In this document: piece after piece, positions 2,236 to 28,203 of the stretch | Numbering within the stretch: the first letter of the stretch is position 1 | Layout of the letters: each line of letters opens with the position of its first letter | From: Perkinsus olseni | Taxonomy: Eukaryota; Perkinsozoa; Perkinsida; Perkinsidae | Direction: 5' to 3' | Length of the DNA stretch: 42,245 bases | NCBI GenBank assembly: GCA_013115135.1 | Contig: JABANP010000461.1 | Span: forward strand, 1 to 42,245 | Translations under genes and position numbers: made by a program | The notes under the pieces: model-generated | The model's input: only the letters and a program-made list of their open reading frames with translations | What the model was told of the DNA's origin: nothing | Database searches by the model: none

Positions 2236-2257
2236 CTGTGGAATCCACAGTGTGGAC
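2236..2257. repeat. 14-nt palindromic insertion footprint (one mismatch)
   Basis: CTGTGGA, then ATCCACAG, then TGTGGAC. This follows the rule O(1-7), rc(O), O(2-8) with O = CTGTGGAC except for one base (A at 2243 where G is expected). Confidence 0.75.
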
Positions 2258-2282
2258 AACAGAAGCCGCCAGCTCAAATCGT

Positions 2283-2301
2283 CAGGCCCTGTCAGGGCCT
2301 G
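2283..2301. repeat. Odd-centred palindrome 9-1-9
   Basis: CAGGCCCTG, a single T, CAGGGCCTG. The single-base centre is the same as in the footprint family, but there is no direct re-entry copy, so the link is weaker. Confidence 0.5.
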
Positions 2302-2739
2302 TGGGCCAGGGTGGGTGTCTGGCCCAATCAGCGGCCAGTGACATCACCATCCGTAAGTCACCACCCACCGAGTATGGCCACCCGATCGGGTCGCGGTCTG
2401 TCCGCCTCTCTCACCCATTGTTTGGACAGTTCGTGATTTCGTTGCGGGTTTTGTGTGGTGACACAAGTTCGTTGGCCACTGATCGTTGCTGTGGGCGGTA
2501 TGCACTGGTAATTCGTCAACGGCGACTCTCAAGTCCAGAGGGGCTGCTAAGGGACCCATCGATATCCGTTTTCAGCGATACCACCGGAGCGTCTGTTATT
2601 GAAGAGTGTTTGGAATACCGACGGCGGGTGAATGTGCGATTACGCGCAACGATACTTCAACTATGAAACTGTATACGCAATTGAGCACGCATTTGAGCAA
2701 ACTGGTTTCTTCCCGAGGTTCACTCTGAACTGACTTGTA

Positions 2740-4292
2740 ATGATTCCTCCCCGTCCCACTCACGACGGACCTTCACATCGGGATGATGACCAAAGCGAAG
2801 ACGCCTGGTTGGCCACAGTCTTCCGCCAAGATGAGCTGAAAGCCCTGGAAGTGGACTCTGCCTTGGCAAAATTTAAGGGTACACCTGCGAGCTCGTACGA
2901 CTCGTCTTCGGTCATGGACTTGCTGGCCGACACGCTCGATCTAGTGCCGGAAGAGCACCGTGCACGCGGGATAGCTACGCTACAGGTGGTGACTCGTCAC
3001 CACCTGCACCTGGTCGAGGCCCTGTCCAAGGCCAGGTCTGTTTGCCCAACCGCCAGCGCTAGAGTCGGGCCCACCCATGAGGCGCCGTCCTCTGTTCTGG
3101 CCCCATCTCGCCCCATGGCTAGTGCTGCCAATGGGGCACCATCCTCTGTCCTGGCCCCTCCCCCGCCATCCACCCGTCAAGTGACACCCTTCCCCTCGCC
3201 ACCCTCGGGACCTACTGCTCCAAGGACGATAGTGGCTGTTTCGGCCACAGCCGCCGGCGGCAAGAGGCAACGCGTTGCTGGTGGAACACCGGACCACCCA
3301 CGCAGGATCGTAACCCCGGCCCCACCGGCGCCGAAAGCACAGGCGAAAGCCAAGGTAAACACCACACCTGGCCCGGTGAGAGCTGCCTTGGAGAAAGCCA
3401 AGAAATCTACCAAGCGCTCTTGCGTAATTGAGCTGAGGTCGAATGACCCCTATGCCCCAGAGATGATTCATCTGAATTTCGAGGCGTTCATCTCAGATGA
3501 ACGCCTCGAAATTCATGGGCTTCCGCAACCTGATCCTGGGTATGCTGGGAAGTAAGATCGTCGTTAACTCCACCTTTCCGCTGAAAGGAGGCATTGGTAT
3601 GGTGCTCAGCGACGACACTCAGGCCAAGGCATGCGTGGAAGCTCTCAACCGCGCCAAGGGTTACTCGGCCAAGGTCAGGTCTGGCCTCTGGCCGAGGATC
3701 ATCCTGTTCAACCCAGCCGTCAACCGCGGGGTCACGATCGACCATCTCGATCGCATGATCCGTGAATCCAACGTTGACTTGGTCAAGGACATCGGGGTCA
3801 TCAGCACATCGTCCTCGTCGACTGTGAACCCCCCCGCGACCGGGCTGGTCGGCACCATCTACTGGCGTGGCCAGCACTTGGTATTATCGGATCCTCTACT
3901 CTCGACTTTCTAGTCGCAAAGAGGGAAAGGGCCACCTGGTTTTGAACCACCTGCGCACCCGTTGGGCGACTTCCAAGTCCCCCGCGGTGTGCTTCAGGTG
4001 CTGCGGCATAGGACACATCGGTCCCGCTTGCCCTCACAAGCAGGACCCGTCCAAGGTGCGCTGCACCCGCTGTGCAGCCTTTAGTCACGAAAGGCAGTCC
4101 TGCCCTGCCCAAGCCATCACTGGTCCGGTACAGAAATGTGCCAACTGCTTGGACCACAATGCAGCACTCACTGGTACCGGGGGTCGCCGCAAGGTTGACC
4201 ACGAGTGTACCGATAGTGCTTGTGAGAGCCTGGCCGCATTTGTTAAGCGGCAATGGGGTAGGACGGACTTCGGATGTGCTGCCTCATTATAA
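2740..4292 (+). pseudogene. LINE ORF1, gag-like with CCHC zinc knuckles, frameshifted
   Basis: Starts at the ATG at 2740 with a low-complexity Ala/Pro/Ser-rich N-terminal half. The C-terminal part (about 3990-4200) has two perfect CX2CX4HX4C knuckles (CFRCCGIGHIGPAC and CTRCAAFSHERQSC) and a third Cys-rich segment, typical of a nucleic-acid-binding gag-like ORF1p. The frame breaks twice. The first break is at 3473-3515, a perfect 21-1-21 palindrome. The second is near 3860-3915, with no perfect palindrome. The stop TAA is at 4290-4292. A second, partial homologue at 10959 has about 80 extra residues in the N-terminal region, so this copy may carry an internal deletion. Confidence 0.88.
3473..3515. 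repeat. Perfect odd-centred palindrome 21-1-21 at an ORF1 frameshift
   Basis: Arms of 21 bp around a single central C at 3494. The ORF1 reading frame changes across it. It looks like a fold-back copy of the preceding sequence inserted into the coding region; removing about 25 nt would restore the frame. Tip geometry matches the 14-nt footprints. Confidence 0.9.
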
Positions 4293-4661
4293 TGGGGGTG
4301 TATTACGATTCGTACACTGAAAACTCGTACACTATCACTTTGTACACGGCTCGTACACTGAACACCCGTTCACTCATTGGATTCATACATCGTCATTTCG
4401 TACACTTGAGACTCGTACACGTAATACTCGTACTCAGGATACTCGTACATATAATACTCGTTCATGTAGTGAGTCGTACACTTGAGGTTCGTACACGTGA
4501 ATCTCATACACTGGCAACTCGTACACGAGCACGACTCGTACACTATGCTTGCTGAGTCGCATTTTTGGGCCGCGCGCTGGGTGCAATGACGGAGCGAAGG
4601 AAGTTATATTGTCTATAGGGAGCGAACTGTTCGGGCCACTCTGTGAGAAAAAGTTTAATAG

Positions 4662-4740
4662 TGTGAGTGGTATGGTGGTTAAGGTAGCGGACTCTCGATC
4701 GGAAGACCGCAGGTTCGAACCTATGTGCAGGGTCTCCCCT
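4662..4740 (+). other. tRNA-like (SINE-like) segment
   Basis: A perfect B-box GGTTCGAACC at 4712-4721 lies about 35 nt after an A-box-like TGGTTAAGGTAG, with AGCGGACTCTCGATC between them as in a tRNA anticodon region. The T-stem and acceptor stem do not pair well, so this is a tRNA-derived remnant rather than a functional tRNA. Confidence 0.45.
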
Positions 4741-4771
4741 AACAGGGAGGAAGTAGAGTGGCACTAAGGGG

Positions 4772-4790
4772 CGCGAGAGCGCCGGCGGAG
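4772..4790. repeat. GC-rich inverted repeat inside the MITE
   Basis: GCGCCGGC and GCCGGCGC-type arms around GGA, near 4779-4797, immediately upstream of the 28-bp hairpin. Exact borders are approximate. Confidence 0.5.
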
Positions 4791-4794
4791 CCGG

Positions 4795-4855
4795 CGCGAA
4801 AATTTTTTAGGCAAGTCGCGGAGCAGTTCCGCGACTTGCCTAAAAAATTTTCGCG
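4795..4855. repeat. Perfect 28-bp stem, 5-nt loop hairpin
   Basis: Left arm 4795-4822 and right arm 4828-4855 are exact reverse complements around GCAGT. Each arm runs CGCGAAAATTTTTT then AGGCAAGTCGCGGA. It sits at the centre of the nested element between its two inverted subterminal arrays. Its perfection implies recent origin or maintenance. Confidence 0.95.
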
Positions 4856-5455
4856 GAGTGTACGAGATGACGGCGTACGACTTGAAACTGGGGTTGTGTA
4901 CGAAATAAGAGTGTATGAAATGCTGGTGTACGAGTTGAAAGTGTACGACTATTATGTGTACGGGTGTTATATGTACGGGTATTACGTATACGAGCATCAT
5001 GTATACGAGTTTTATATGTACGAATCTCTCGTGTATGAGTATTTTGTGTATGACTATTCAGTGTACGAGTATTTCGTGTACGATTAGGAAGTGTATGAGT
5101 ATTGGAGACATGAGTCGGAAATGTACGACTATTTGGTGTACGAAACGTGAACATCCCTATAATGGTGAGGGTTTATCAGCACAACCAGGGTCGTCGGCCG
5201 GTGGCACTAGATCTTCTACAGTCCCGGCTGCGTAGCTCTTTCGTAGATTTTATTTGCCTCCAGGAGCCTTGTTCCTCCTCGCGTAAGCTCGTTGGTTACC
5301 AGTACCATGGCTTGCGTCGAGACGAGGAGGCAGCGGTTTTATCTAAACGTGGCACCATGTGCCACACGGTCTTTGCGTCCCGCGACCTCGCTGTGGTCAA
5401 GGGACGCAGCTACGGTATTGCGTCGCTCTACCTCCACGGCTCTGACGCGCCACGG

Positions 5456-5477
5456 GCGATGAGTCATCGCCGATGAC
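5456..5477. repeat. 14-nt palindromic insertion footprint (exact)
   Basis: GCGATGA, GTCATCGC, CGATGAC, so O = GCGATGAC. It lies in the LINE endonuclease; dropping 14 nt rejoins the frame through PRAMTEIEEV. Confidence 0.92.
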
Positions 5478-6016
5478 GGAGATCGAGGAGGTCATAAACT
5501 CATGGCCACCTACTATCCCACTTTATATCGTGCTGATGCTAACGCGTGGCACGTAGGGTGGGGCTCGGTCTACACTGCTGCCAACCAACACAGGCAGGCA
5601 TGGCAGCGTGGTGAGACGCTCGTGCGCTGGTGTCTGGACAGAGAAGTAAGGATCCTCAATGACGAGGTATCCTTGCCAACCTTCGAGTCCAATCGGTACC
5701 AATCGTGAGTCGATCTCACCCTATTGTACGGAGCCCCCAGAGATGGCATTGAGCCTAGATGGGGGGTGGTCGATGACCTCTGCGGATCAGACCACAGGCT
5801 TCTCTACGTCGAGTTCGGTGAGCAGGAGGCGGTTCCCGCTCCGAGACTGGCGCACCGTCTCGTAGACGTAGCCAAGGTCATTGACGGCGCCTCTCGGATT
5901 CCCCCTGATACCTCTCTCTCTGGTATCACGAGATCCTTGAGTGCCTTGGTGAAACGGTTCACGCCTCAGGCCCCAGCCCCATCTGACACCACCTGGTGGA
6001 CGGGGGAGCTGTCGAG

Positions 6017-6038
6017 GCTAAAGCCTTTAGCCTAAAGG
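6017..6038. repeat. 14-nt palindromic insertion footprint (exact)
   Basis: GCTAAAG, CCTTTAGC, CTAAAGG, so O = GCTAAAGG. It lies between the endonuclease and RT domains of ORF2; dropping 14 nt rejoins the frame through ELSRLKAKLRR. Confidence 0.92.
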
Positions 6039-7001
6039 CGAAATTAAGAAGGGCCCAGCGGGCGTTCTTCCGTCACAAGAGGTTGAACGGCCCTGATGCA
6101 TCATCCACGATGCATTGTCGGGGAGTCCGCGACGCTGCCACACGCAAGTTCAAGGCAGCGGCCAAAGAGGCCAAGCGGGTAGCTGCTCGCAGATTTTTCA
6201 CTGATCTACAGCACTACTCCCGCTGTGTTAAACGAGGATGCCCCCGGATTCCTCCTGCCGCTATATGCGAGCATGGAGTGAATCAGGCGGACTTCCTCCT
6301 ACGGCGGCTTTTCCCTCGTGATCCCGACAGGGACACAGAGGTCGAGGCCCTACGGTTAAGGCAGCGTACCGAGCCTGTGCCGGCGTTTACCTCCTCTGAA
6401 CTCAGAGAGGCAGCCAATGGACTCAGGCGAGGAGCTGCCCCTGGTGAGGACGACGTCAGTAATGACATAGTTCTCGACACGCTCGAGGTGTTAAAGGACA
6501 GCTGGTCTGTCCAGCTTACCGCAGCCCTCGAAGCTGGTACTTTTCCTGAAGAGTGGAAACACTCGAAGGGCGTGTTTATTCATAAAAGTGGCCGGGACCC
6601 AGCTCGCCCCAACGGCTGGCGTCCCATCTGTTTGGTCACTTCTGGTAGCAAGCTGTTCGAGCGAGTAATCCTCGAGCGGCTTGCCTCGTGCCCGCAGATT
6701 GGTGACCGCTTGGAAACTCCAGTGGTCCACGGTTTCTGCAAGGGTAAATCGGTGGACACTGCCGCCTCACGCATCGTCGAAGCGTTCAGGGCCGGTAGGA
6801 AGAGGAGTAAGCGCGCACCAGTAGCTCTCATCCAGCTCGATGTGCAAAATGCGTTTCCCTCGGTTAAGCACAGCCACATTCTGGCTACCTTGGCTCGATA
6901 CGGCGTGCCTCGATATTTAATCGACATCGCCGCGAGCTATCTTAAGGGACAGAGTGTGGCTGCTACGTACGGTAGCGACGAGGCCACGGTGGGTTTAGAA
7001 A

Positions 7002-7023
7002 GAGGGGTCACCCCTCAGGGGTG
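7002..7023. repeat. 14-nt palindromic insertion footprint (exact)
   Basis: GAGGGGT, CACCCCTC, AGGGGTG, so O = GAGGGGTG. It splits the conserved RT motif GVPQGSALGP; dropping 14 nt rejoins the motif, an independent check that it is an insertion. Confidence 0.95.
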
Positions 7024-7730
7024 CCTCAAGGCAGCGCCTTGGGCCCGTTCCTATTTCTGTTAAGCACCCTGCCGCTCATTGACGCGTTCGTGGGGATGGA
7101 AGAGAAGGGGGTAAGCCTGACCCTCTACGCGGATGACACGACGGTAGTGGTGTCTGCCGGTACTGGCCCGTCGCTGATAAAGAGGTGGCGGTCAGCAGAG
7201 GCTCTGCTGCTGACCTGGGCCGCCGATGCGGGAGTGTCCTATGAGCCGGCCAAAAGCCAGGCGCTCCTGCCTAGGACCATCGGGGAGAACGTCTTGTCCC
7301 TGGATGGAACGCCCGTTGACATTGTCAAGGTTGTCCGGGTGCTTGGTGTTTGGATCGATCACCGGTCATCGTTCCAACATCACATCAAGGTTAAATGTGC
7401 CGAAGCCAAAGCCAAGTTAGGCAGGCTGAGGCACCTGGGCTGGCCACGTGCTGGGATCACCGGAAAGAAAGTGATCAAAACCTACAAGGTGGCGATCGTT
7501 CCGGCCCTCAGTCACGCTGTTGCAGCATGGAAGGAGGGGCTAGAGTCAACCACGGCGAAGTCTGCCTTGTTGCAAGTTTCAGCTATGGTGGCGAGGATAG
7601 CCCTCCAAGCTCCACGGAATAGCTCCAATGCGGCACTCTGCGTCGCGGCTGGCATCTTGCCAGCAGACTTGGAGCTCCGGACCATCGCGGCCACCAGGCT
7701 CGCTGCGCTTGGGTGTGCTAAGGCCCTACT

Positions 7731-7753
7731 AGATTGGTCTAGTAGACCAATCT
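7731..7753. repeat. Odd-centred palindrome 11-1-11 at an ORF2 frameshift
   Basis: AGATTGGTCTA, a single G, TAGACCAATCT. The ORF2 frame changes here, between the RT and RNase H regions. Removing 13 nt would join the two frames. It has the same tip as the 14-nt family but no clean re-entry copy. Confidence 0.85.
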
Positions 7754-9141
7754 CTCTTGGTCAAGGGCTTGACTCTCTTTGAGGGTCGCGATGGCGCTGA
7801 TACGGTGCAGCGCTGGAGGGGATTGCCCACTCAACCTTGGCACCCCTGGGTCACGACTACCATCTCGGAACGTGAGGAGGCCAAGAACTACGCGCTCGAG
7901 GCTCTCCAAACTAAGAATGCCATCTTCACGGATGGCTCGGTAGTCAAGGACGTCAAGACCGGCGCTGCTTTGGTCGTTTATCGTGAGGGCGTAGAGGTCT
8001 ACTCCAATTTCTGGAAGCTCTCCCCTTACGCTACTATCACGGATTGCGAACTCCTAGGAGTTCTGGAAGCAGTCCGCTGGATTGTCTCGACAGCGGGTGA
8101 CGAGGCCTGGGAGATCTTCACGGACTCTCAGGCGGTACTCAAGATCCTGTCGTCCCGAGCATCCACGGCCCGGTGGGATAAGGCGAGACAGATCTATCTG
8201 TCATTGTCCGAAATCCCTGGTAGGGTATCCCTTCGATGGGTACCGGGGCACAGTTCTATCAGTGCCAACGAACGGGCCGATGAGCTGGCAGCCAAGGGTG
8301 CCTCCATGAGGGAAGTCTCTGCGGAGACGGAAATCAGTGTGAGGACTCTTCGGCGGTATCAAGGAGAAGCTGGCCGTCTGTCACTGCGCAAGTGGTGGTC
8401 AGACAAGAGAGCCAGCCTGGGCACTTCTGTCAACGACTTCTTTTACTGCGCTTCACTCGCTCGTTTGTGGATCCGCGGGGAAGTCACGGCAGCTAGCAGT
8501 GCCGTTGTATCCGGAAGGGCCCCAACCCCAGCCCATCTCTATAGATGCGGGGTGGTCAACTCGCCAGAGTGTGACTGTGGGGCGCCGGTGGGGAACACGC
8601 GGCACTACCTCCTCTCCTGTCCGCTCCTGGAGCAGGCTAGGAATAGGGTCAAAGGTGGTGTCCCCTACCATTTATATAAACTAATTGTTGATTTGAAGCG
8701 ACGCAAGTCCTTCAATCAACTTTGTTCGGCCCTCATGCAGTATCTCGATGCTCGCAGGGGCTTATTGCAGTGCCGGGTAGGCACAACTCTCGGTTTTCCG
8801 CCTCTGTTGTGTACGAGGGCCTCGTAACGAGGCCCACCGTTGGATATATGCTGAAAAAAAACAAAAAAAATAGCAGCAGCTGGAGCAAGCGTCGGAGGAC
8901 TGGCGACCGGGACGGTGACCGCGAGGATGGAGGAAGATGCAGATGAAGTCGGTCGAAGCCTTAGAGCAGGAAGACGTGATGAGTAATTCATGTATTGCTC
9001 GTTATTAAGGAACGTTTTAATCTGAGCAAATTGGTTGTCGCGTAGTAGGCGAATTGAACTGGCCAACACCTTCCCGCTTACGCGTGCTTGGAAACCTCTG
9101 GCTTCGGGGACGTGGGGGTAGAGAAACGCGGCTGACGTGCG

Positions 9142-9163
9142 GATCTGACTCAGATCATCTGAG
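9142..9163. repeat. 14-nt palindromic insertion footprint (exact)
   Basis: GATCTGA, CTCAGATC, ATCTGAG, so O = GATCTGAG. It lies in non-coding sequence downstream of the LINE. Confidence 0.92.
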
Positions 9164-9266
9164 ATTTCGGCAGCAACAGTACACAAAATGCGGCGCGGTG
9201 ACCGGAGGCCCACGTGGCACCCCTACGCCATCTCTGAATGTCAGCGTGTTTCGCATTGACAGTCAA

Positions 9267-9295
9267 TGGTGTGAGTCAATGATTGACTCACACCA
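9267..9295. repeat. Odd-centred palindrome 14-1-14
   Basis: TGGTGTGAGTCAAT, a single G at 9281, ATTGACTCACACCA. Perfect arms with no direct re-entry copy. Confidence 0.9.
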
Positions 9296-9740
9296 GTGTC
9301 AAAGCCATGCTCGAATAGTGTGGACAATGCTCTCCGAAAGCTCGGTTTATGCGTGGTGGGTGAGGTGGGCTCGCGAAACCGATCGGTTAGTCGGCGCGAT
9401 CCATGCGTCACCGCAGGGAAGCAGCACGAGACCAAAATGCCGACTGACGGCTCAACACCATAACATGTGGAAACTCTAGTCTACCTTACGTTCGTCACTG
9501 GCTATTTGAGGCACTCTGTCCCTATCTCGTCGGGCGGGAGCCGTATTTGTGAGAAAGACGTCCCCTCATAGAAGGCTCTCAACGGCAACAAAGGCAAACC
9601 TTTATCTTAGCAGTAAACTTTACACTACTCTACTCCACAGTATACTGTGTGTGCCAGTTTGATATGCAAATGACATTTATGCTTATATATAACTCGTTCT
9701 ATGGAATCTCGGGAAGAATCATACTTCAAATGGAAGGCAA

Positions 9741-10290
9741 TCACCAGAGCCCTGGTACTTGCCGAGTTGGGCCTCGGAGTTGGCTTTGGCACGAACGAGG
9801 AAAGATTCCTGGGCGGCCTTGGTGTTCTCCTCCTTGCCTGACCAGGTCTTGATGGCACTGGCTTGCAACGCACGACCATAAGAGAAGGTAAGAGCCCATG
9901 GGCGACGCTCCTTGGGGAGCTGGTTCATAGCCGACAGATTGACGGAGGCATCCTCCTCACTCTGACCGCCGGAAAGGAAGGTGACACCAACGAGAGCCGG
10001 AGGCAGGGTACGGGCGAGAGTTCGAACGGTCAACTCAGCGATCTTCTGAGCAGTGGGGCGCTCGGGACAGTCCACACCAGCGGTGACCATGTTGGGCTTG
10101 ACCAAGTAGCCCTCAAGAAGGACATGCTGATCATTCAAGGCCTTGAACACAGCGGACAAAACCCTCTCGGTGACGTAGGCAGAGGTCTCGAATCGAGACT
10201 CTCGATAGTATGAGTACCATCGGTCAAGATCTCGGGCTCAACGATGGGGACAAGACCGTTGGCCTGGCAGATGGTGGCATAACGATGCGT
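9741..10290 (-). pseudogene. Aldolase class I 3'-half fragment (copy 1)
   Basis: Reads on the minus strand as the C-terminal half of class I fructose-bisphosphate aldolase, including KPNMV around the Schiff-base lysine and [15 protein letters not shown]. It lacks the last codons (homology starts at about 9741) and everything upstream of the RYATICQ region, where it is joined to oligoribonuclease sequence. It is further broken by the 14-nt footprint at 10185-10206, absent from the other four aldolase copies in this window. Non-functional fragment left by segmental duplication. Confidence 0.92.
10185..10206. repeat. 14-nt palindromic insertion footprint (exact, proved by paralogues)
   Basis: GTCTCGA, ATCGAGAC, TCTCGAT, so O = GTCTCGAT. 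The corresponding sites near 17812, 23102, 25149 and 27059 have a single uninterrupted GTCTCGAT (GTCTCGAT then GG in the last), so 14 nt were added here. Confidence 0.97.
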
Positions 10291-10372
10291 TCAGGGAGAT
10301 CAAGCTCATCGACTGTGAAAAGAAAAAACGTCGAACAGTCTAACAGTCTGTGAATAGCTGAGTTCAGGGGGC

Positions 10373-10812
10373 CGAGGTCAGTTCAGTGACAGTAGTCTTC
10401 CGAAGTGAACCAATTGTTATCAGGTCGCGGCAAAATTTGTTAGTGAAGGCCAAGGGCTCCCCGCAGGCAGCACTGTGCATGTTGACAAGAGGTTCCTGGA
10501 GAAGTACATGCCGAAGTTCAGCGATAAGATACAGAAAGTCATCGACGTATTCTTTCCTGCCCGAGACAGGCTGCCTCGACAACTGGCCCATGACCGGACT
10601 CCAGGTGCATGTCATTCCCTCGTCGTCTCAGGCTAACTTCGTTATCGCGTACACGATGTGATCACGTTGAAGGAGCTTGCCAAGAGATGGGACCCCAAGG
10701 CTCTGGAGGCCTCCACTGGGAAAAGGGCAACGCATCGAGCATTGGAGGACGTCCAGGATAGTACCAACGAGCTGAAACACTACCGAGATTGCGGCTTCGT
10801 CAATTTGCAAGG
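10373..10812 (+). pseudogene. Oligoribonuclease 3' fragment (copy 1)
   Basis: Homologous to the intron and exons 3-4 of the oligoribonuclease at 12244-13030. The C-terminal signature is clear ([10 protein letters not shown] and HRALEDVQDS). It lacks the first two exons, which are replaced by the aldolase fragment. The start of exon 4 has TAA where the full copy has TAC, and the exon 3 donor GGTAAG is changed to CGATAAG, so it cannot encode the protein. Confidence 0.85.
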
Positions 10813-10958
10813 CCTCACATTAATAACTATTGTTTCTGAGGCTGACTCGGGCATGCCCGTGGGCGTTGCGTTTGGAAAGTGGAGACTACAGTACTGGTAA
10901 CACTGACAAGGATTTCTAGTTCTTTTTTTTCCTCTGGTGGTTCTCTTCGAACTAACTA

Positions 10959-13422: not shown

Positions 13423-13424
13423 AG

Positions 13425-16115: not shown

Positions 16116-16959
16116 GTATTTTATTGCTGTATTGAGGATTGATGCGCACTGACTGCCAAGTTCCACGCTGTTAATACTGGTATGAGGTGTCGCCTTGGTT
16201 CTACTGGCTACTAAGTCCAACTTTTCCCCCAAGGTGACAAAATCCTATACTATGCTCATCAACTTTTTAGTGTGTCCATCAAAGTGAATAATTGTCTGTT
16301 GCCACTATGTGTCAAATATGACTCGCACCTTGACTTAGCCGATGCTTAATAGCATCAGCATCTTTTTCGATGGACGGATTAGCTCCAAGAGAGGCTCTCT
16401 CAAAGAGCGTCGAACTCTGCGTCAACAGTTTCATGGGTATCATACTCTTTTTTTTATCTTTCCATTATCGCCACTGCAGTAGGGTGGATGGCAGGTTGTA
16501 GGTTCTATTAAGAGTCTACGATGATTTATTACGCCCATTTCTTCTGGCTGCTTTGTTAGGCCGAGTCATGGCCATTTTCCTATTTTGCGTGAAGTCCGAG
16601 TCGTAGAAGACCCATTCTCAGGCCCAAGCCCTAATAGTTAGCTGACTTTTTAACATGATGAAATGCCATGTGAGTCCCGTCGAAGCGGCGAGCCCAGTCG
16701 TAGTCTCACAGCTCATTTTCGCTTATCCTATGTCGCTTCACTAAGAAGCGAAGCTAAGTGGCGGACTATAAGAAGACAGCGGATTAAATATGGATTCCAG
16801 ATGGCAAACCCCCGGGTGTTGTGTTCTCAGTCAGCCAGTCTCGCCACACGGTCTTCTCATCTCTCAAACAACCTCTGATCTCCTCGGCCTCCATTCGGCT
16901 TTGTGTGATGCAGCCCGCCTGACTTTGGAGGATAGACGAATAGTAAGAAAGACTTTCGT
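16116..16959. other. Intergenic, no gene recognised
   Basis: Follows the esterase stop and is shared with unit B at 21502-22242, with indels. A hairpin GATGCT-TAAT-AGCATC near 16341-16356 is conserved in both units and could be a 3' UTR element. A degenerate footprint-like palindrome AGAGAG-G-CTCTCT lies near 16390, in sequence absent from unit B. Confidence 0.5.
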
Positions 16960-17319: not shown

Positions 17320-17934
17320 TTAGTAAACATAGTTCTTGACGTACAAGGACTTCTTAGCCGACTCATCACCAGAGCCCTGGTACTTGCCGAGTTGGGCCTC
17401 GGAGTTGGCCTTGGCACGGACGAGGAAAGCTTCCTGGGCGGCCTTGGTGTTCTCCTCCTTGCCTGACCAGGTCTTGATGGCACTGGCCTGCAAAGCACGA
17501 CCATAAGAGAAGGTAAGAGCCCATGGGCGACGCTCCTTGGGAAGCTGGTTCATAGCCGACAGATTGACGGAAGCATCCTCCTCACTCTGACCGCCGGAAA
17601 GGAAGGTGACACCAACGAGAGCCGGAGGCACGGTACGGGCGAGAGTGCGAACGGTCAACTCAGCGATCTTCTGAGCAGTGGGGCGCTCAGGGCAGTCCAC
17701 ACCAGCGGTGACCATGTTGGGCTTGACCAAGTAGCCCTCAAGAAGGACATGCTGATCATTCAAGGCCTTGAACACAGCGGACAAAACACTCTCGGTGACG
17801 TAGGCAGAGGTCTCGATAGTATGAGTACCATCGGTCAAGATCTCGGGCTCAACGATGGGGACAAGACCGCTGGCCTGGCAGATGGTGGCATAACGATCAT
17901 CGTTAAACGATGCGTTCAGGGAGATCAAGCTCAT
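17320..17934 (-). pseudogene. Aldolase class I 3'-half fragment (copy 2)
   Basis: The C-terminal half of class I aldolase on the minus strand, intact to the terminal YVKNYVY, with KPNMV and FLSGGQ. Upstream of RYATICQ the aldolase sequence stops and is replaced by the same junction sequence as in copy 1 (the segment 17912-18028 matches 10283-10396). A 14-nt footprint at 17891-17912 sits right at the join. It marks the boundary between duplication units. Confidence 0.93.
17891..17912. repeat. 14-nt palindromic insertion footprint (exact, proved by paralogue)
   Basis: TAACGAT, CATCGTTA, AACGATG, so O = TAACGATG. The same junction in copy 1 (near 10278-10285) has a single uninterrupted TAACGATG followed by the same GCGTTCAGGG. 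Confidence 0.97.
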
Positions 17935-17994
17935 CGACTGTGAAAAGAAAAAACGTCGAACAGTCTAACAGTCTGTGAATAGCTGAGTTCAGGG

Positions 17995-18432: not shown

Positions 18433-18793
18433 TAAATATTGTTTCTGGGACTGACTCAGGCATGCCCGTGGGCGTTGCGTTTAGAAAGTGGAAACTACAG
18501 TACTGGTAACACTGACAAGGATTTCTCCTCGAGCGTGCAGGGACACGATTTCACCGATTTACGTCACCGAGTGACGGTTCTCCGGGAAAGCAGTTCGGAT
18601 CAGAGGAAGAAGACCAGTTCGGACGTTGAACCGACTCGAAGTGGGTGGTGTAAGAGATAGATCGCTGTACCCGGACGATGTCACTGTCACAGCCCAGTCA
18701 CTGACACGCCACGTCCGATCCGAGAAGCCAGTGCATCAGTGCTCCGGAGTTTCCTATCAGCAGAAAGCACGGGAAGTTCTCAGCGGCAGGACG

Positions 18794-18824
18794 AGAAATC
18801 AAGACTAGGCTAGTCTTGATTTCT
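18794..18824. repeat. Odd-centred palindrome 15-1-15 (unit B)
   Basis: Identical to 13392-13422. Confidence 0.93.
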
Positions 18825-18826
18825 AG

Positions 18827-18883
18827 AGTTCACAAGCGTATCTTCCCGCTAGTCAGACTAGCGGGAAGACACGTTTGTGAACT
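18827..18883. repeat. Odd-centred palindrome 28-1-28 (unit B)
   Basis: Same as 13425-13481, but the central base is A instead of T. Confidence 0.9.
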
Positions 18884-19819
18884 GTACTCACTTGTTCCCA
18901 TAAGAAAGAAGTGCGATAAGAACACGTCCAAGAACATGCGCCACGACGGCGCGGCATGTCCCACTGGCCCGGCCGTGACACTTCGCAAGGAGTGACCTCG
19001 TCCTTGAGCAAGCTGGACTCTAGCTACCAGGCAGTTGTTCCCAAGTTATAATACCACAGCGGAGGGATACGTTGCGACCCTTGATCGAGAAAATTACCAA
19101 CGCTGGTTCATAGTCCTCCACGACAGCATCTTCTGCAAATCGGAGACACGGTGCGCCCCATGTAGATCAGGAGACGTTGTCTATTCGCATACGCTATAAG
19201 GTCGTACTTCTAGTCTTGAATTGACCACAGATGGCCGAGTGCTGCTTATCATATTTTATTCATGAACCATTTTTGTCGTAGTTGATGTAGGGAAATCCGG
19301 GATAATCGAGAGACGCTGCCTATTAGACATCTGGCTGTCGCCAGTCTGCCGCGTAGACACTGGAGGAGGAACGACGGCCATGTCCCAATGGCCCGGCAGC
19401 GACACTTCGCGAGGAATGAGTTCGTCCATGAGCAAACTGGACTGTGGTTGCTGGAGCGGATGTTCCCAAGTTATGATACCGCAGCTAAGAGACATCTTTC
19501 AACTCTTGGTCGAGCAAATTACCAATCATTTTTTCGTAATCAATGTAGGGATGTCCGAGACAATCGGTAGACACTCAGATAATCTGGATCAGATTATACG
19601 CGTGAGAGGACCGTCACGCGTGCGACTCCGCCGGGGGATCTTGAACTTGGTGACTTCTGAGCTCTGGAAAGACGGTCTGTCGAGCTCAAACCTACGTGTG
19701 GATCCACTTTGGCCCACACATGGAGTTCTCTCCTAGTCGTTAGCCAGCCGTGTTGATTCTATCTCATCACTCGTGTGGTGCAAACTATAGCATAGTTACT
19801 TTCCATCGACTCCCGCCGC

Positions 19820-21501
19820 ATGCCCACTGCTCTCGTTGGTATCATCCTACCCCTCTGTCTCGGTGTCGCAGTCGTTGGGATGGTCGTCGATGACGTGCCA
19901 GGAGCCCCTGGAGGATTTGATAGCGACAAGCTGAAGCCTATTCCTAGCACGTGTCTCGAGGGATTTCTATCCCCTGCGTTCGATACGTAAGTTCAACGTC
20001 TGCGGTGCCCCCCAGTCACTCCAGTAGTGACTTGCGGAGCTCAAGTGATACGCTGCAATGGAACTTCATCCTCAGGAACGAATGCCTCCCAGTATTATGG
20101 AACCAAATGGTGGTGAGTGCAGCCACTTCGAAGCTAAATGAGGAGCTCAGGCGACTGAAGTAAGAAGAAGTTCGATGCCGTTGTGAGTTGCATCCGTGCA
20201 GAAAGCAATACTGTTTTCTCAGACGAGACGTCAGCGACGAGACCTACTACACAGTCGAGCTCTACAATGTGGTTGTGACAGACAAAAGTGATTCTGCTTC
20301 AAGTGGACTCCATTTAGTGGGGTTAGCTCTCCTTTCCTGCGGTTTAACGACCGCCTTCAGTCCTGAGGACTAAAGCTTAGCCCTAAGGCCTATGACCGTC
20401 TACTTATGTCTCCCGTGTCAGGTGCAACTCACATGAGTCAGCTCCGTGTACTCCCTCAAGACTACAAAATCCACACCGTTATAACTGAGCCTCAGCAAGA
20501 CCAGTCAGCCGACGCTCCTGAGTTCAGTGTCCGCGTTGTCCACGACGTGCTGGTGGCCAATAGAAGACGCGCTGCGACTAACACGTCGTCAGTTCCTAGG
20601 AGGACGCAAACTACTGGCATCCCAGGAAGTGAGAAGTTTAGCTTCGACATGAAGGTCTCTGAGAGTCTCACGCTAACACGCTCTTATTATCGCCATCTCC
20701 CCCCCAAGGGTGTCGAGGTTAAGGGTATACTCATACAGTATCATGGTTGGGGTGACACGTGTGAGTCATGGGAGGAGTACTCCAAGACTACTGCCGTCGC
20801 TGACGAGAACGGCCTGATATTGATTACTGCCTGTGGTAGTAACTATGGATGGTTGTCTAGCCGGTGGGCACCGATGCACGGATGGAATGCCGGTACATGC
20901 TGCATTCAGAGACAAAGACATCGACGATGTGGAGTACACGAAGACTATCATCAAGAGGGAGAATAAGAACAATTTGCCCGTCTATGGTTATGGTTACAGT
21001 AATGGTGGTATGATGGTGGAAGCACTACTGTGTCATAAGGTCATCCAGAGCGCGGTGTCAGTAAACGGTGTATTGGCTCTGCCTCCTGGTCTGCGAGGAT
21101 CTTTCAGGACTTGCTCGAAGTTGTACAAGGATGGTTCCCTGGGCCCGAAGCCTTTGGCGCCGAGAGTGGCGAGCGTGCACTGTCTTGATGATGAATATGT
21201 TCCCTACAAAGGCGAGGAATCTTCGTATAGCGCGTGGTTCTACGGGACATATTTCCCGAGGACTAACAGAGACCTCAGACATTGGGCTAGTAGGATCGGG
21301 TGCAAAGACGACGACACTACCAAGACGAAGATCAACGACTGGATAACACTGAAAGAGTGGAAGTGCCCGGCAGAGGAGAGGGTCGCCTTAGTCAAGAGGT
21401 TTCAGTGTGGCCGGTATAATACCTCACCTCATAAAGTCGTTAGAACCCCTGACTTCGACCCCGCCGAGTGGGCGACGAAATTCTTCCTTAGCGGAGGGTA
21501 A
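19820..21501 (+). pseudogene. Esterase copy B, frameshifted
   Basis: Close paralogue of the esterase at 14438-16115, with the signal-peptide exon (ATG at 19820) and the hydrolase exon to the stop at 21499-21501. Relative to copy A an extra C near 20911 (AGAGACAAAGAC versus AGAGAAAAGAC) shifts the frame between CCIQR and DIDDVEY. The downstream GYGYSNGGMM and HCLDDEYVPY parts are intact in the other frame. Either a recent pseudogene or an assembly error. Loop residues around the insertion and near 21215 differ from copy A. Confidence 0.82.
20355..20375. repeat. Palindrome 10-1-10 (unit B, one arm mismatch)
   Basis: Equivalent of 14973-14993 with CTTCAGTCCT in the left arm. Confidence 0.75.
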
Positions 21502-22242
21502 GTATTTTATTGCTGGTATGAGGTGTCGCCTTGGTTCTACCGGCTACTAAGTCCAACTTTTCCCCCAAGGTGACAAAATCCTATACTATGCTCATCAACC
21601 TTCTAGTGTGTCCATCAAAGTGAATAATTGTCTGTTGCCACTATGTGTCAAATATGACTCGCACCTTGACTTAGCCGATGCTTAATAGCATCAGCATCTT
21701 TTATCACACTCCTTTCTTATCTTTTCATTATTGCCACTGGAGTAGGGTGGATGGCAGGTTGTAGGTTCGATTAAGAGTCTTCGATGATTTCCGCTCATTC
21801 ATTGTGGCTGCTTTGTTAGGCCGAGTCATGGCCATTTTCCTATTTTGCGTGAAGTCCGAGTCGTAGAAGACCCATTTTCAGGCCCAAGCCCTAATAGTTA
21901 CCTGATTTTTCAACATGATGAAATGCCATGTGAGTCCCGTCGAGGCGGCGAGCCCAGTCGTAGTCTCACAACTCTTTGATGTTTCTCATTTTTCGCTTAT
22001 CCTATGTCGCTTCACTGAGAAACGAAGCTAAGTGGCGGACTATAAGAAGACAGCGGATGACAGATGGATTCCAGATGGCAAACCCCCGGGTGTTGTGTTC
22101 TCAGTCAGCCAGTCTCGCCACACGGTGCACCATCCCGTGTTCTTATCTCTCAAACAACCTCTGATCTCCTCGGCCTACGTTCGGCTTTGTGTGATGCAGC
22201 CCGCCTGACTTTGGAGGATAGACGAATAGTAAGAAAAACTTT
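21502..22242. other. Intergenic, no gene recognised (unit B)
   Basis: Equivalent of 16116-16959, shorter by two indels. Near 22125 unit B has extra bases, giving ACACGG...CCGTGT (an inverted copy of the preceding bases) where unit A has none. Confidence 0.5.
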
Positions 22243-22382
22243 CGTGTCACACAGTGTCACCACCCTATGTTGTGGTGACACGTCCGCCTCATATACACAC
22301 ACAGTGTTACCACCCTATGTTGTGGTGACTCGTCCAGCTTATACACATGCAGTGTCACCACCCAATGATGTGGTGACACCTC
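22243..22382. repeat. Three-unit copy of the 46-50 bp hairpin array (unit B)
   Basis: Same structure as 16960-17100, downstream (minus strand) of the complete aldolase at 22606. Confidence 0.93.
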
Positions 22383-22540
22383 CAGCGTCACCGCACTACG
22401 GTGTGCTCGCAGGTTGTGTGACAATTTGCAACTATAAATTCCATCATTATACGTGGAGGTTTCAGTACAAATTATTTAGCTTCCCTGCAAACTGCGAAAC
22501 ACAACAACAACGTAAGTATCAGCGCATCACGCGTACACTA

Positions 22541-22558
22541 GTAACTCACTAGAGTTAC
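22541..22558 (-). promoter_or_regulatory. Conserved 3' UTR hairpin of aldolase
   Basis: GTAACTC, ACTA, GAGTTAC forms a 7-bp stem about 50 nt after the aldolase stop. It is conserved at 24589-24606 and with one change near 17258. Role in RNA 3' end formation is a guess. Confidence 0.4.
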
Positions 22559-22605
22559 AATCGTATATCACTGTTTGAGAAAAATAATCGTCATCAAGCA
22601 GCAGT

Positions 22606-23691
22606 TTAGTAAACATAGTTCTTGACGTACAAGGACTTCTTAGCCGACTCATCACCAGAGCCCTGGTACTTGCCGAGTTGGGCCTCGGAGTTGGCCTTGG
22701 CACGAACGAGGAAAGCTTCCTGGGCGGCCTTGGTGTTCTCCTCCTTGCCTGACCAGGTCTTGATGGCACTGGCCTGCAAGGCACGACCATAAGAGAAGGT
22801 AAGAGCCCATGGGCGACGCTCCTTGGGAAGCTGGTTCATAGCCGACAGATTGACGGAAGCATCCTCCTCACTCTGACCGCCGGAAAGGAAGGTGACACCA
22901 ACGAGAGCCGGAGGCACGGTACGGGCGAGAGTGCGAACGGTCAACTCAGCGATCTTCTGAGCAGTGGGGCGCTCGGGACAGTCCACACCAGCGGTGACCA
23001 TGTTGGGCTTGAGCAAGCAGCCCTCAAGAAGGACATGCTGATCATTCAAGGCCTTGAACACAGCGGACAAAACCCTCTCGGTGACGTAGGCAGAGGTCTC
23101 GATAGTATGAGTACCATCGGTCAAGATCTCTGGCTCAACGATGGGGACGAGACCGTTAGCCTGGCAGATGGTAGCATAACGAGCAAGAGTGTGAGCGGTC
23201 TCCTCGATAGAGAGCTGAGAAGGCATTTGCTTGGCCTCGTCGATCTTCAGGACGGTTCTCCACTTGGCGAAGCGAGCGCCCTGCTCGTAGTACTTCTGGC
23301 AACGCTCAGCGAGGCCATCAAGTCCCTGAGTAGCAGTCTCACCGTCGGTACCGGCGAGCTGGACAAGTCCCTTATCGACCTTGATGCCGGGAATGATACC
23401 CTGCTTCTTGAGCAAGTCAACCATGGGGACACCCTCGGCATTCTTCTGGAAGAGAGTCTCCTCAAAGAGGATGGCACCAGAGATGTACTTGCCAGCATCA
23501 GGGGCGGTGAAGAGAAGGGACCTGTAGGCAGCACGGTGCTCCTCAGTGTTCTCGATACCAGCGGCATCGAAACGCTTCTTGATGGTGCCAGTGGACTCAT
23601 CAGCGGCCAAGATTCCCTTGCCGGGAGTGCAGATGGCGTTGGCAGTCTGGATGAGCTCAGCCTGATACTTGAGAGTCTCGCGAGCGGGCAT
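22606..23691 (-). CDS. Fructose-bisphosphate aldolase, class I (paralogue 1)
   Basis: 361 aa, single exon, ATG at 23691 ([10 protein letters not shown]). The frame is open further upstream, but the family start and the conservation among the three paralogues favour this Met. It splits fructose-1,6-bisphosphate into DHAP and glyceraldehyde-3-phosphate in glycolysis. Visible: [12 protein letters not shown] (active-site Asp), FAKWR (Lys), IVEPEIL (Glu), LLKPNMV (Schiff-base Lys), [11 protein letters not shown] and the C-terminal Tyr (YVKNYVY) needed for full class I activity. It is the intact source of the truncated 3' fragments at 9741 and 17320. Confidence 0.97.
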
Positions 23692-24588
23692 GTTTGAATA
23701 TGACAATACAATAACTGCCGAAACAGAAGTGTTAAACTCACTGTGCGCGCATACAGACCCAACTATAAACGATTCACCTGAAGGTGATAGAATACTGATT
23801 GTCACGCTGATCCGACATAAGCGTCCCTTGTGGCAGCGCTGTTGTACACTGAGCATTGTGTACACCTGTCCCCCCATGGCTTCGACACTAGCCTTCAGAG
23901 ATCACCGATCAGTCGACCATCCCTAGCGCTCTGAATAGTTACTATTTTGGAAGGGGAGCAGAACAGCTCAGCCGGCTATGCTACTTTGCCCTGAAAACTA
24001 GGCAGATCGCGCTTACACGAGGGTTCGTCGGAGCCTGTGCTTCTGGTTTGAGCGGGATAACTTACCAGGGGCCCATATTATCTGTTCTTCGTTCTGCGTA
24101 AAAGTGCATTCTCATCGACCAACGGTTGTCAATTGCCGAAACGTTCGTTTCAGAACCATCTAACCGTGGCGTGTTAGTAGAGTAGCCTGTTGGTCAACTG
24201 CCACCGCATCCCGAACACCGTTTCGCGGAAGTGAACCACGCGACAGGATACTCGCTCTTACGCTATCGATCCAACATTACCTTAAGAGACGTAATGAGAT
24301 TTCAGAACCGTAGACTCGGAAGACTCACGAGCAGTAGATCAGACAGATGGGCAACCTTCCCCACATCGGAGGGCAAATGATGAATCATGAGACGAAGCGC
24401 ACGTGTTGACGGTTCAAGGCTCCACCGACTGACAAGGCGACGTTGAGTAGGTAAGTGTTGCCGAACACTCACCAACCTCCTCAAAGGAGAATCAAACATG
24501 TGCAGGCGGCATTCCTCTTTCGCCGCATCCATGATCTTCTTCTACTGCAACACAACAGCGTTAGTATCAGCGCATCACGCGTACACTA
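23692..24588. other. Intergenic between aldolase 1 and 2
   Basis: Contains the upstream region of aldolase 1 (shared motif at 23837-23873) and then about 600 bp with no recognisable gene, up to the aldolase 2 3' UTR hairpin. Confidence 0.6.
23837..23873 (-). promoter_or_regulatory. Conserved upstream element of aldolase 1
   Basis: CGCTGTTGTAC.CTGAG.ATTGTGT.CACCTGTCCC (plus-strand reading) lies about 146 nt upstream of the aldolase 1 ATG and recurs at 25884-25919, about 145 nt upstream of aldolase 2. Flanks are diverged, so conservation suggests a promoter or 5' UTR signal. Confidence 0.5.
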
Positions 24589-24606
24589 GTAACTCACTAG
24601 AGTTAC
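24589..24606 (-). promoter_or_regulatory. Conserved 3' UTR hairpin of aldolase 2
   Basis: Same GTAACTC-ACTA-GAGTTAC stem as at 22541-22558, about 50 nt after the stop. Confidence 0.4.
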
Positions 24607-24653
24607 AATCGTATATCACTGTTTGAGAAAAATAATCGTCATCAAGCAGCACT

Positions 24654-25739
24654 TTAGTAAACATAGTTCTTGACGTACAAGGACTTCTTAGCCGACTCAT
24701 CACCAGAGCCCTGGTACTTGCCGAGTTGGGCCTCAGAGTTGGCCTTGGCACGGACGAGGAAAGCTTCCTGGGCGGCCTTGGTGTTCTCCTCCTTGCCTGA
24801 CCAGGTCTTGATGGCACTGGCCTGCAAAGCACGACCATAAGAGAAGGTAAGAGCCCATGGGCGACGCTCCTTGGGGAGCTGATTCATAGCCGACAGGTTG
24901 ACGGAAGCATCCTCCTCACTCTGACCGCCGGAAAGGAAGGTGACACCAACGAGAGCCGGAGGCACGGTACGGGCGAGAGTGCGAACGGTCAACTCAGCGA
25001 TCTTCTGAGCAGTGGGGCGCTCAGGGCAGTCCACACCAGCGGTGACCATGTTGGGCTTGAGCAAGCAGCCCTCAAGAAGGACATGCTGATCATTCAAGGC
25101 CTTGAACACAGCGGACAAAACCCTCTCGGTGACGTAGGCAGAGGTCTCGATAGTATGAGTACCATCGGTCAAGATCTCTGGCTCAACGATGGGGACGAGA
25201 CCGTTAGCCTGGCAGATGGTAGCATAACGAGCAAGAGTGTGAGCGGTCTCCTCGATAGAGAGCTGAGAAGGCATTTGCTTGGCCTCGTCGATCTTCAGGA
25301 CGGTTCTCCACTTGGCGAAGCGAGCACCCTGCTCGTAGTACTTCTGGCAACGCTCAGCGAGGCCATCAAGTCCCTGAGTAGCAGTCTCACCGTCGGTACC
25401 GGCGAGCTGGACGAGTCCCTTATCGACCTTGATGCCGGGAATGATACCCTGCTTCTTGAGCAAGTCAACCATGGGGACACCCTCGGCATTCTTCTGGAAG
25501 AGAGTCTCCTCGAAGAGGATGGCACCAGAGACGTACTTGCCAGCATCAGGGGCAGTGAAGAGAAGCGACCTGTAGGCAGCACGATGCTCCTCAGTGTTCT
25601 CGATACCAGCAGCATCGAAACGCTTCTTGATGGTACCAGTGGACTCATCAGCGGCCAAGATTCCCTTGCCGGGAGTGCAGATGGCGTTGGCAGTCTGGAT
25701 GAGCTCAGCCTGATACTTGAGAGTCTCGCGAGCGGGCAT
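24654..25739 (-). CDS. Fructose-bisphosphate aldolase, class I (paralogue 2)
   Basis: 361 aa, ATG at 25739, nearly identical in protein to paralogue 1 with the same catalytic Lys, Asp, Glu and terminal Tyr. The coding region, 3' UTR hairpin and immediate 5' leader (GTTTGAATATGACAATACAA on the plus strand) match paralogue 1, while further upstream diverges. Recent tandem duplicate, presumably giving higher dosage of the same glycolytic enzyme. Confidence 0.97.
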
Positions 25740-26567
25740 GTTTGAATATGACAATACAATAACTGCCAATAACAAAACCGTTAAATTCACTGCTGATGCC
25801 CGAATTCCCATCTATTAACGATACATCGAAATAAGTAGAACGCTGACTGCTATCCTGAACTGAGAATAGCGATCCTCAGAGCTGCGCTGTTGTACGCTGA
25901 GAATTGTGTGCACCTGTCCCATCGTGTCTCTCACTCGAGCTCACCAACGGTCATAGCTGATCGAGTACACCTTTCACAGTACTCGTTAGCAACTCCAAAG
26001 AAGAGGCTACATGAAGGTCGTCACTAAGGTTGAATCAACTTCGCTAGCTCTCTCACGCGGGTTCACCGAGAGCGGGACAATGATGTTCAGATAACTCAGA
26101 CAGCTCGTGGGAACGAGAATACTTCGCTTGGCTGCCCGAGCCCACGAGAAAGCTGGCGAGCTGTCCAGCGACGAACCAACCCACTTGATCTTCAAGCTAG
26201 GGACTCCAATTAACTGGCGCTACTTGTCGCCTCAACCACGAGCAACCTGGCGGGCCCACCACCAAGATTCTCGATTCTCCCCTCTATTTCCGACCATTCT
26301 CAACAGCAACGAAGCTGAGCCCCCCGCTAGATTTACACTAAATAGTGCCACCATATCGAAGCGTGTCTCAATATCGTTACAACCTTTAACAGTCCGAAGA
26401 AGATACTACTTTGATTAACGGGTCCACGAGAACTCGGCACAGGTACGCAACCGGTCTTGGAAAACTTTTAGCTTACACCATATTCTCTGAAAAAAGGAGG
26501 GCTCAAGGATCACGCGATAAGAATAGTGATCAATGGCCTTCAGTTCGAAGAACTTCTGTTATCATAT
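25740..26567. other. Intergenic between aldolase 2 and 3
   Basis: Holds the shared upstream element (25884-25919) and an inverted repeat CTCGTGGG...CCCACGAG near 26104-26149. No gene recognised. Confidence 0.55.
25884..25919 (-). promoter_or_regulatory. Conserved upstream element of aldolase 2
   Basis: Counterpart of 23837-23873 at the same distance from the start codon. Confidence 0.5.
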
Positions 26568-27650
26568 TCAATAGACATAGTTTTTGACATAAAGCGACTT
26601 ATTAGCAGCAGCATCAGCAGACCCCTCGTACTTCCCGAGTTGAGCGGCAGAGTTGGCCTTGGCCCGAGTGATGAAAGCCTTTTGAGCAGCCTCAGTGTTC
26701 TCACTCTTGCCAGCCCAAGTCTGGATAGCACTATGCTGAAGAGCACGGCCGAATGAGAAGGTCAACGGCCACGGGCGCGTCTCCTTCATCGCGTTCATAG
26801 CGTTGAGGTTGAGCGAAGCCTCTTCTTCGCTCTGGCCACCAGACAGGAACAACACACCAACTAGAGCTGGAGGGACGGTACGCTTGAGAGTGCGAACAGT
26901 CATTTCAGCGATCTTCTCAGGAGATGCGCGCTGGGGGCACTCTGCACCGGGCATGACCATATTGGGCTTGAGAACGCAGCCTTCAAGAAGGACGTGCTGA
27001 TCGTTCAACGCCTTGAACACAGCTGAGAGAACTCTCTCGGTGACATACGCGTCAGTCTCGATGGTATGAGGGCCATCGCTCAAGACCTCGGGCTCGACGA
27101 TAGGAACTAGACCGTTAGCCTGGCAGATACTGGCATAACGAGCAAGAGTGTGAGCGGTCTCCTCGATAGAAAGTTCAGACGGGACCTGCTTGGCCTCGTC
27201 AATCTTCACAACAGCTCTCCACTTGGCGAAGCGAGCGCCCTGCTCGTAGTACTTCTGGCAACGCTCAGCGAGGCCATCAAGTCCCTGAGTAGCAGTCTCA
27301 CCATCGGTACCGGCGAGCTGGACGAGTCCCTTATCGACCTTGATGCCGGGAATGATACCCTGCTTCTTGAGCAAGTCAACCATGGGGACACCCTCGGCAT
27401 TCTTCTGGAAGAGAGTCTCCTCGAAGAGGATGGCACCAGAGATGTACTTGCCAGCATCAGGGGCGGTGAAGAGAAGCGACCTGTAGGCAGCACGGTGCTC
27501 CTCAGTGTTCTCGATACCAGCGGCATCGAAACGCTTCTTGATGGTACCAGTGGACTCATCAGCGGCCAAGAGGCCCTTGCCGGGGGTGCACATAGCGTGG
27601 GCAGTCTGAATGAGCTCAGACTGATACTTTAGTTCATCACGAGCAGGCAT
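26568..27650 (-). CDS. Fructose-bisphosphate aldolase, class I (paralogue 3, divergent ends)
   Basis: 360 aa, ATG at 27650 ([10 protein letters not shown]). Catalytic features are intact: [28 protein letters not shown] and YVKNYVY. The C-terminal half and the first residues differ clearly from paralogues 1 and 2, yet about 27216-27590 is almost identical to them at DNA level, including silent positions. That mosaic suggests gene conversion from a neighbouring copy. The leader and 3' UTR are unrelated to those of the other two, so regulation may differ. Confidence 0.96.
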
Positions 27651-28203
27651 TAGGGAGTTGATAGATAACAAAATACTAACTTGAATTGATTCGGGGTCAG
27701 CGTTGCGAGCACTGCAGCAGGCACAGAGGGGCCGCCAATTGAGTATCCGGGGCTGCTTAAGGGTAACCATTCCCCCCGTGGACTTTATGATCCAGAGCTC
27801 TCAGGTAACCTGAGTCAGGTTAAAAAGGTTCACCATGAGCCTCGTCAAGGCTAGAAGATATCTAAGCGCCTTGTGATGGATTCTGTGCCATGACTGCGCA
27901 AGTAGAGGCGCAAGATACCCCTGAATTATTAGGCGCGCGCGATACACTTTCGACGACTTCGACTATTTGACAGATTCTGGTGGTCGCACGATTCTCGAAA
28001 ATCCCCTGAGCCCCCCCGTTGATGCCGCTCTCTCTACAACATGGATAGCCCCCTTCCGCCCACTGTTATGAGCGCGACATGTCCTCTTGCTCCCAAGGCG
28101 TAGACTAGCAATGCCTTCCGAATGGGCTGGCCGGTCGGCGCATGATTCAGCCTTGCCTGCTGACGGTGTCCTCGCTGGGACTGTATCAGTTCTAATCTTG
28201 TAA
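27651..28203. other. Divergent intergenic region with one footprint
   Basis: Separates minus-strand aldolase 3 from the plus-strand protease. No gene recognised; contains the footprint at 27800-27821. Confidence 0.6.
27800..27821. repeat. 14-nt palindromic insertion footprint (exact)
   Basis: CTCAGGT, AACCTGAG, TCAGGTT, so O = CTCAGGTT. It lies about 150 nt upstream of the aldolase 3 start codon, in unique intergenic DNA outside the duplicated segment. Confidence 0.93.

Follow-up and report, generated by a model that had tools for sequence, protein, structure and literature searches.

A 42,245-nt stretch of the Perkinsus olseni genome (contig C403 of an assembly of 61.5 Mb in 968 contigs; hereafter the window, always at its full length) contains a set of 22-nt units that have a single geometry in common. 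In each unit, an 8-nt sequence, O, is written as its first seven nucleotides, its full reverse complement, rc(O), and its last seven nucleotides, so that the unit reads O(1–7), rc(O), O(2–8) whatever the sequence of O. The pattern is real, lies far above chance and is stronger than a preliminary description of this DNA had stated. With a probability of about 0.85, each unit is the healed scar of an excised transposon of the hAT superfamily, formed when the flanks of the excision site, predicted to be hairpin-capped, were opened and probably joined through the duplication O. Excision marks are a better reading of these units than insertions of a novel element type. The excision chemistry itself is already known, and the new feature is the occurrence of one dominant product in such numbers.

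Geometry and number of the 22-nt units

The window contains nine exact scars, two scars with one mismatch and two with two mismatches. The seven exact cases of the preliminary description (5456, 6017, 7002, 9142, 10185, 17891 and 27800) and its one-mismatch case at 2236 were all recovered at the same positions. Five units were absent from its list: the exact scars at 8812 and 28788, the one-mismatch scar at 1981, and the two-mismatch units at 7194 and 16387. The complete set is as follows (no strand is assigned).

1981..2002: scar with one mismatch, O = CTCGGCAG
2236..2257: scar with one mismatch, O = CTGTGGAT
5456..5477: exact scar, O = GCGATGAC, within a long interspersed nuclear element (LINE) copy; paralogues L004 and L006 have O
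6017..6038: exact scar, O = GCTAAAGG, within the LINE copy; the 14 nt are missing from three paralogues, in which O carries substitutions
7002..7023: exact scar, O = GAGGGGTG, within the LINE copy; three paralogues lack the 14 nt and have O
7194..7215: possible decayed scar with two mismatches, O = AGCAGAGC
8812..8833: exact scar, O = TACGAGGC, within the LINE copy
9142..9163: exact scar, O = GATCTGAG
10185..10206: exact scar, O = GTCTCGAT; this stretch has a second copy in the window, unscarred and with O intact
16387..16408: possible decayed scar with two mismatches, O = GAGAGAGC
17891..17912: exact scar, O = TAACGATG; this stretch has a further copy in the window, unscarred and with O intact
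27800..27821: exact scar, O = CTCAGGTT, bordering an aldolase reading frame (26568-27800, minus strand)
28788..28809: exact scar, O = GGGCAGAC

The scar at 5456 is less clean than the others, as alignments with its paralogues show a net gap of 5 or 6 nt instead of 14 nt because a neighboring difference is mixed in.

When the rule was applied to the window with other unit lengths (k), exact matches numbered 19 at k = 4, one at k = 5, none at k = 6 or 7, nine at k = 8 and none at k = 9 to 12. In one hundred dinucleotide-preserving shuffles of the window, the mean count was 0.76 at k = 5 and 0.09 at k = 6, and there were no matches at k = 7, 8 or 9. The analysis was extended to a sample of 13 arbitrarily chosen 10-kb stretches outside the window (130 kb; window and sample together, 172 kb). 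The sample contained 24 exact scars at k = 8, six matches at k = 5 and none at k = 6, 7 or 9–14. Scars with at most one mismatch numbered 46, and summing the counts per stretch gave 63 with at most two. Two of the checks that the preliminary description had proposed, against shuffled sequence and against other unit lengths, did not refute the 8-nt unit: not one match at k = 8 was present in the 100 shuffles versus nine in the window, and the 33 exact scars of window and sample are accompanied by none at unit lengths 6, 7 and 9 to 12. In twenty Markov-1 simulations of 172 kb the mean number of exact matches at k = 8 was likewise 0, and the 172 kb contained 76 scars with at most two mismatches (1 in the simulations) and 120 with at most three (6 in the simulations). 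The first 38 loci (119 kb), many of which are paralogues picked for hAT or LINE matches, yielded 68 exact scars at k = 8, eight matches at k = 6, seven at k = 5 and none at k = 7 or 9–12. The scars are independent of any single repeat family, as had been claimed from the window.

The scars are clustered, with 19 of the 24 exact sample scars in three of the 13 stretches and none in six of them, so the totals extrapolated to the whole genome, approximately 11,000 exact scars, or 30,000 if up to two mismatches are allowed, are rough. A whole-genome pattern search for the class with O = GTnnnnAC returned 454 matches per strand, compared with 154 for a reversed control, and among the matches listed (contigs C1 to C34) the full rule was found at 32 of 50 distinct places, where 0.0008 would be expected. 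This class, which accounts for 3 of 98 unique scars, would then comprise about 290 exact scars, and the genome total would again be about ten thousand, with a wide error.

Copies with and without the 14 nt

Indels of at least 4 nt were taken from BLAST alignments of fetched paralogous stretches. After merging, 64 events were obtained, of which 24 were 14 nt long; this was the commonest size, followed by one with six events (78 events, 29 of them 14 nt, before merging). All but one of the 24 merged 14-nt indels correspond to the 22-nt unit (17 exactly, five with one mismatch and one with two). For 14 of the 17 events with an exact scar, O is intact in an empty copy. The earlier proposal that the units arose as 14-nt insertions of one invariant geometry is therefore borne out by paralogues that lack the 14 nt.

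Scars are also found in common between copies at different loci. Five of them occur in three hAT copies that are 99.3–99.6% alike, and four of the five are exact in a fourth copy. The near-identical hAT copies L034 to L037 have several scars in common over the fetched stretch, and therefore the scarred copy itself was amplified. Among the 24 one-mismatch scars in the 172 kb, the changes are spread across both arms of the unit. These observations bear on the possibility that the units result from polymerase template switching at hairpins or from an assembly or sequencing artefact, an explanation that we find hardly credible. Template switching generally makes inverted copies, but neither process predicts a length of exactly 8, the hAT-like motif described below, decayed copies with mismatches on both arms or scars common to copies at different loci. 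An assembly artefact is specifically disfavored by the last two of these.

Predicted excision route and hAT features

The preliminary description knew of no described element with such a rule. However, the geometry is what hAT excision is predicted to leave if the hairpinned flanks open deep and are joined through the 8-bp duplication. A hAT element would insert with duplication of 8 bp, giving O-element-O, and on excision the transposase would nick the DNA one nucleotide outside the element. The 3′ end released at o7 of the left flank would attack the opposite strand at o8′ and form a hairpin with the unpaired o8′ at its tip, and an equivalent hairpin would form around o1′ in the right flank. 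A nick 8 nt or more from the tip would then open each hairpin; one strand would run from O(1–7) into rc(O), and the strand of the other flank would carry O. The two 8-nt stretches would be complementary, because the same O ends both flanks, and the overhangs from the two duplications could anneal, with any surplus trimmed or gaps filled. Ligation would give O(1–7) rc(O) O(2–8), which is 14 nt longer than the empty site. Since both flanks end in O, the same annealed unit would result from any nick at least 8 nt from the tip. Hairpin-capped flanks have been described as products of hAT-type excision (PMC4763223, PMC1978519). For the scars described here, the hairpins and the position of the nicks are steps that we infer from their form.

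A hAT origin is indicated by three features of the scars: a unit of 8 nt, which equals the hAT target duplication; turns that fall on the complements of the element-adjacent bases; and a target motif. In all 33 exact scars of window and sample, the turning bases are o8′ and o1′, and hAT footprint palindromes are described as centered on the complement of the base adjacent to the element (PMC5873905). With respect to the motif, T at o2 or A at o7 occupies 82 of 196 positions in the 98 unique scars (p = 3e-8), and G at o1 or C at o8 occupies 76 of 196 (p = 6e-5); a control on the middle positions gave 51 of 196 (p = 0.28). The scars had previously been said to share no sequence, which needs correction, as O leans weakly to GTnnnnAC. 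This lean is that of a hobo/Hermes-like target, with a preference of the nTnnnnAn type. Both of these elements make 8-bp duplications, and their published motifs, GTNCGNAC in the case of hobo (PMC3276498) and NTNNNNAN in that of Hermes (PMC2803484), are stronger than the lean seen in the scars. This preference is not universal among hAT elements, as TcBuster is reported to favor nnnTAnnn (PMC3499496).

The genome also contains the corresponding transposases and elements. The hAT dimerisation domain (Dimer_Tnp_hAT) gave 35 matches in the genome, 32 of them above the Pfam cut-off, and one open frame carries DUF4371 together with Dimer_Tnp_hAT. Several element families have typical hAT ends (CAGTG.., CAGGCC.. 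and TAGAGATGG..). Four resident hAT copies are flanked by exact 8-bp duplications (GTCCGGAG, GTGTCGGG, CCTGATTC and TAGGGCTT), and for three of them (GTGTCGGG, CCTGATTC and TAGGGCTT) uninterrupted empty paralogues exist. When hAT-like ends combined with an 8-bp duplication were sought, one resident turned up in the loci examined and none in the window or the sample, in searches that miss longer elements, elements cut by the ends of loci and decayed duplications. A structural search for an 8-bp duplication with any inverted ends gave nine matches; a single tandem repeat of the window accounted for six of them, and another match was weak (L039, in the sample, with ends alike at 10 of 12 positions).

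Several further structures were noted. Positions 343-726 of the window hold a short repeat with several recurrences of a unit end, CCTATGAT, which a structural search can mistake for terminal repeats with duplications. The search with any inverted ends added a plausible element of 200 bp in locus L044 (803-1018). Its inverted ends, perfect over 12 bp (GCAAAATCCAAG), are unlike those of the hAT families seen, and its 8-bp duplication is ATCATGAT. A 201-bp insert in the LINE copy L079 (C153:24935-25175) was rejected as a hAT resident, as it starts with TG, ends with CA and has a 5-bp repeat; it resembles a solo long terminal repeat or a similar small element. Junctions between the rearranged near-duplicates L054 and L055 were not diagnostic. 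In L058, a paralogue of the right flank of one resident, the left flank is not in common.

Uniformity of the product

In the 172 kb the product with full rc(O) occurs 33 times, and other two-armed combinations (at least nine constraints) occur 0 to 2 times each. The classical 16-nt hAT footprint (four cases versus 2.9 expected) and the tandem OO (three versus 2.6 expected) are both near chance and were discarded as further products. The tandem arrangement is relevant to an aborted integration in one step, in which an 8-nt staggered target cut would be mis-joined and the element would never become resident. Such a process would suit a genome with many scars and few recognisable residents, of the kind found in our searches. 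However, if an 8-nt stagger were simply filled in, the result would be tandem OO, whose frequency is that of chance, and the one-base turns would require a cut one base outside the element end. We give this explanation only a slim chance.

The dominance of one product also raises the question of how the hairpins are opened. With the same hAT origin, the transposase or a dedicated nuclease might open them at a set distance that coincides with the duplication's outer edge, and the ready-made 8-nt cohesive ends would be ligated without a homology search. The excess of one product over all others speaks for this version, which we nonetheless consider unlikely. The scar sequence does not discriminate here, as any nick at least 8 nt from the tip gives the same product, and we know of no hAT transposase that opens its own hairpins in this manner. 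Cohesive ends derived from target duplications have been modelled for mPing, with 3-nt ends (PMC4561436). As in the excision route proposed here, complementarity of the two target duplications guides repair in mPing/PIF elements. The mPing model differs in having no flank hairpins and in restoring the empty site, whereas here a 14-nt scar stays (PMC4561436). The genome has a Ku-like exon, although a weak one (28.3 bits against a cut-off of 25), as well as an Mre11 domain (with one TAG in the match) and a DRMBL domain, and the loss of a repair pathway as the cause of uniformity is therefore unsupported.

Several observations weigh against excision of hAT elements as the source of the scars, or against the uniformity of their repair. 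The motif is weak in the 33 scars of window and sample (25/66, p = 0.008; 24/66, p = 0.04). P elements likewise make 8-bp duplications and have a GT..AC-like motif, GTCCGGAC (PMC3276498). Right junctions were sought for eight residents, and an element end with the duplication was found in three; for one other the downstream flank was recovered but lacked the duplication, and for the remaining four no junction was obtained. Among the 15 of 27 non-self flank matches that were read, no site proved to be filled in one copy and scarred in another (13 were empty and unscarred, one filled and one diverged). One-armed variants of the unit (10 or 11 constraints) occur one to three times each, nine in all, in a count that covers one side and has no simulated baseline, and minor repair products may therefore exist beside the one with full rc(O). 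Uniformity at a single site is not unique, since one product was reported for 11 of 17 Arabidopsis Ds excisions at one site (PMC1978519).

The resemblance to P elements is an argument that the marks come from a different superfamily whose duplications are 8 bp long, such as P or Merlin, and Perkinsus is named in a paper on Merlin elements (PMC8101967); in our view this origin is very improbable. P-element excision leaves bases of the element ends behind, whereas the 22-nt unit is made up entirely of O and rc(O) and no element sequence is shared among the 83 scars listed. The Merlin transposase makes duplications of 8 or 9 bp. Complement-centered turns are described for hAT elements (PMC5873905), which again favors hAT excision.

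Among known systems, Ac/Ds in yeast, Candida and Arabidopsis also leaves palindromic P-nucleotide insertions centered on the element-adjacent complement, explained by a hairpin model, and microhomology is reported at most joints in yeast and Arabidopsis (PMC5873905, PMC1978519). Palindrome arms reach up to 20 nt in yeast, with 47% of at least 3 nt, and in Candida 28 footprints were described in 128 revertants, with arms of at most 3 nt (PMC5873905). In contrast to these mixed products, a single product that involves the whole 8-bp duplication stands out here, at an estimated thousands of unrelated sites. Kat1 of Kluyveromyces lactis is likewise a hAT-type enzyme that leaves hairpin-capped flanking DNA, but it is domesticated for mating-type switching (PMC4763223). 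No published account of such scars genome-wide or in Perkinsus was found among titles and the beginnings of abstracts, in a search that most subscription papers lay outside.

Transposon excisions are usually hard to spot because they are repaired in varied ways, but the scar described here identifies itself, as the 22-nt rule requires no particular sequence and finds scars with almost no chance matches. Mismatches between the arms give a rough scar age. If the hAT origin is true, past excisions can be counted against insertions, and target choice and selection against frameshifts can be mapped in one genome. We see an even chance of a broader picture, in which hAT excision in this lineage has a single-outcome repair route: hairpinned ends would be opened so deep that the entire target duplication is freed and serves as a cohesive end of 8 nt. 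The scars, fresh and decayed and numbering tens of thousands, would then form a near-permanent ledger that far outnumbers the residents and constitutes the commonest class of small insertions in repeats, with a visit-and-leave life cycle as a leading source of mutation. A testable repair question is why the opening and joining of hairpins should be uniform here, whereas Ac/Ds footprints are mixed in yeast and Candida. For annotators of such genomes, frameshifting 14-nt insertions are to be expected in repeats and decayed genes.

Gain of putative scars, LINE copies and gene context

Private scars were present in 20 of 60 partly overlapping paralogue alignments (88-99.9% identity). Scar gain was fast between L025 and L027 (four per 24 substitutions), in two stretches of L054/L055 (three per 27 and four per 40) and between L006 and L007 (three per 66). 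None were gained in two other stretches of L054/L055 (13 and 23 substitutions), in a 5.2-kb duplicate within the window (220 substitutions) or between L012 and L023 (38 substitutions). The LINE copy of the window carries four exact scars. The LINE copies L002, L003, L004 and L005 (on C471, C842, C906 and C260, respectively), 23 to 330 substitutions apart over ~3.4 kb, contain no exact scar, which would fit selection against frameshifts in lineages that stayed coding.

The window also contains four aldolase-like frames, one of them partial, in duplicated blocks.

17320-17964, minus strand: aldolase-like frame
22606-23901, minus strand: aldolase-like frame
24654-25811, minus strand: aldolase-like frame
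26568-27800, minus strand: aldolase-like frame

The identity of the window aldolase to three Perkinsus marinus proteins is 91%, 93% and 77%, and to P. olseni proteins 83-84%. A dinozoan-type spliced leader had 84 exact matches in the genome versus 0 for a control. Spliced-leader-like sequences on contigs C268, C41, C270 and C871 form evenly spaced runs that resemble tandem gene arrays.

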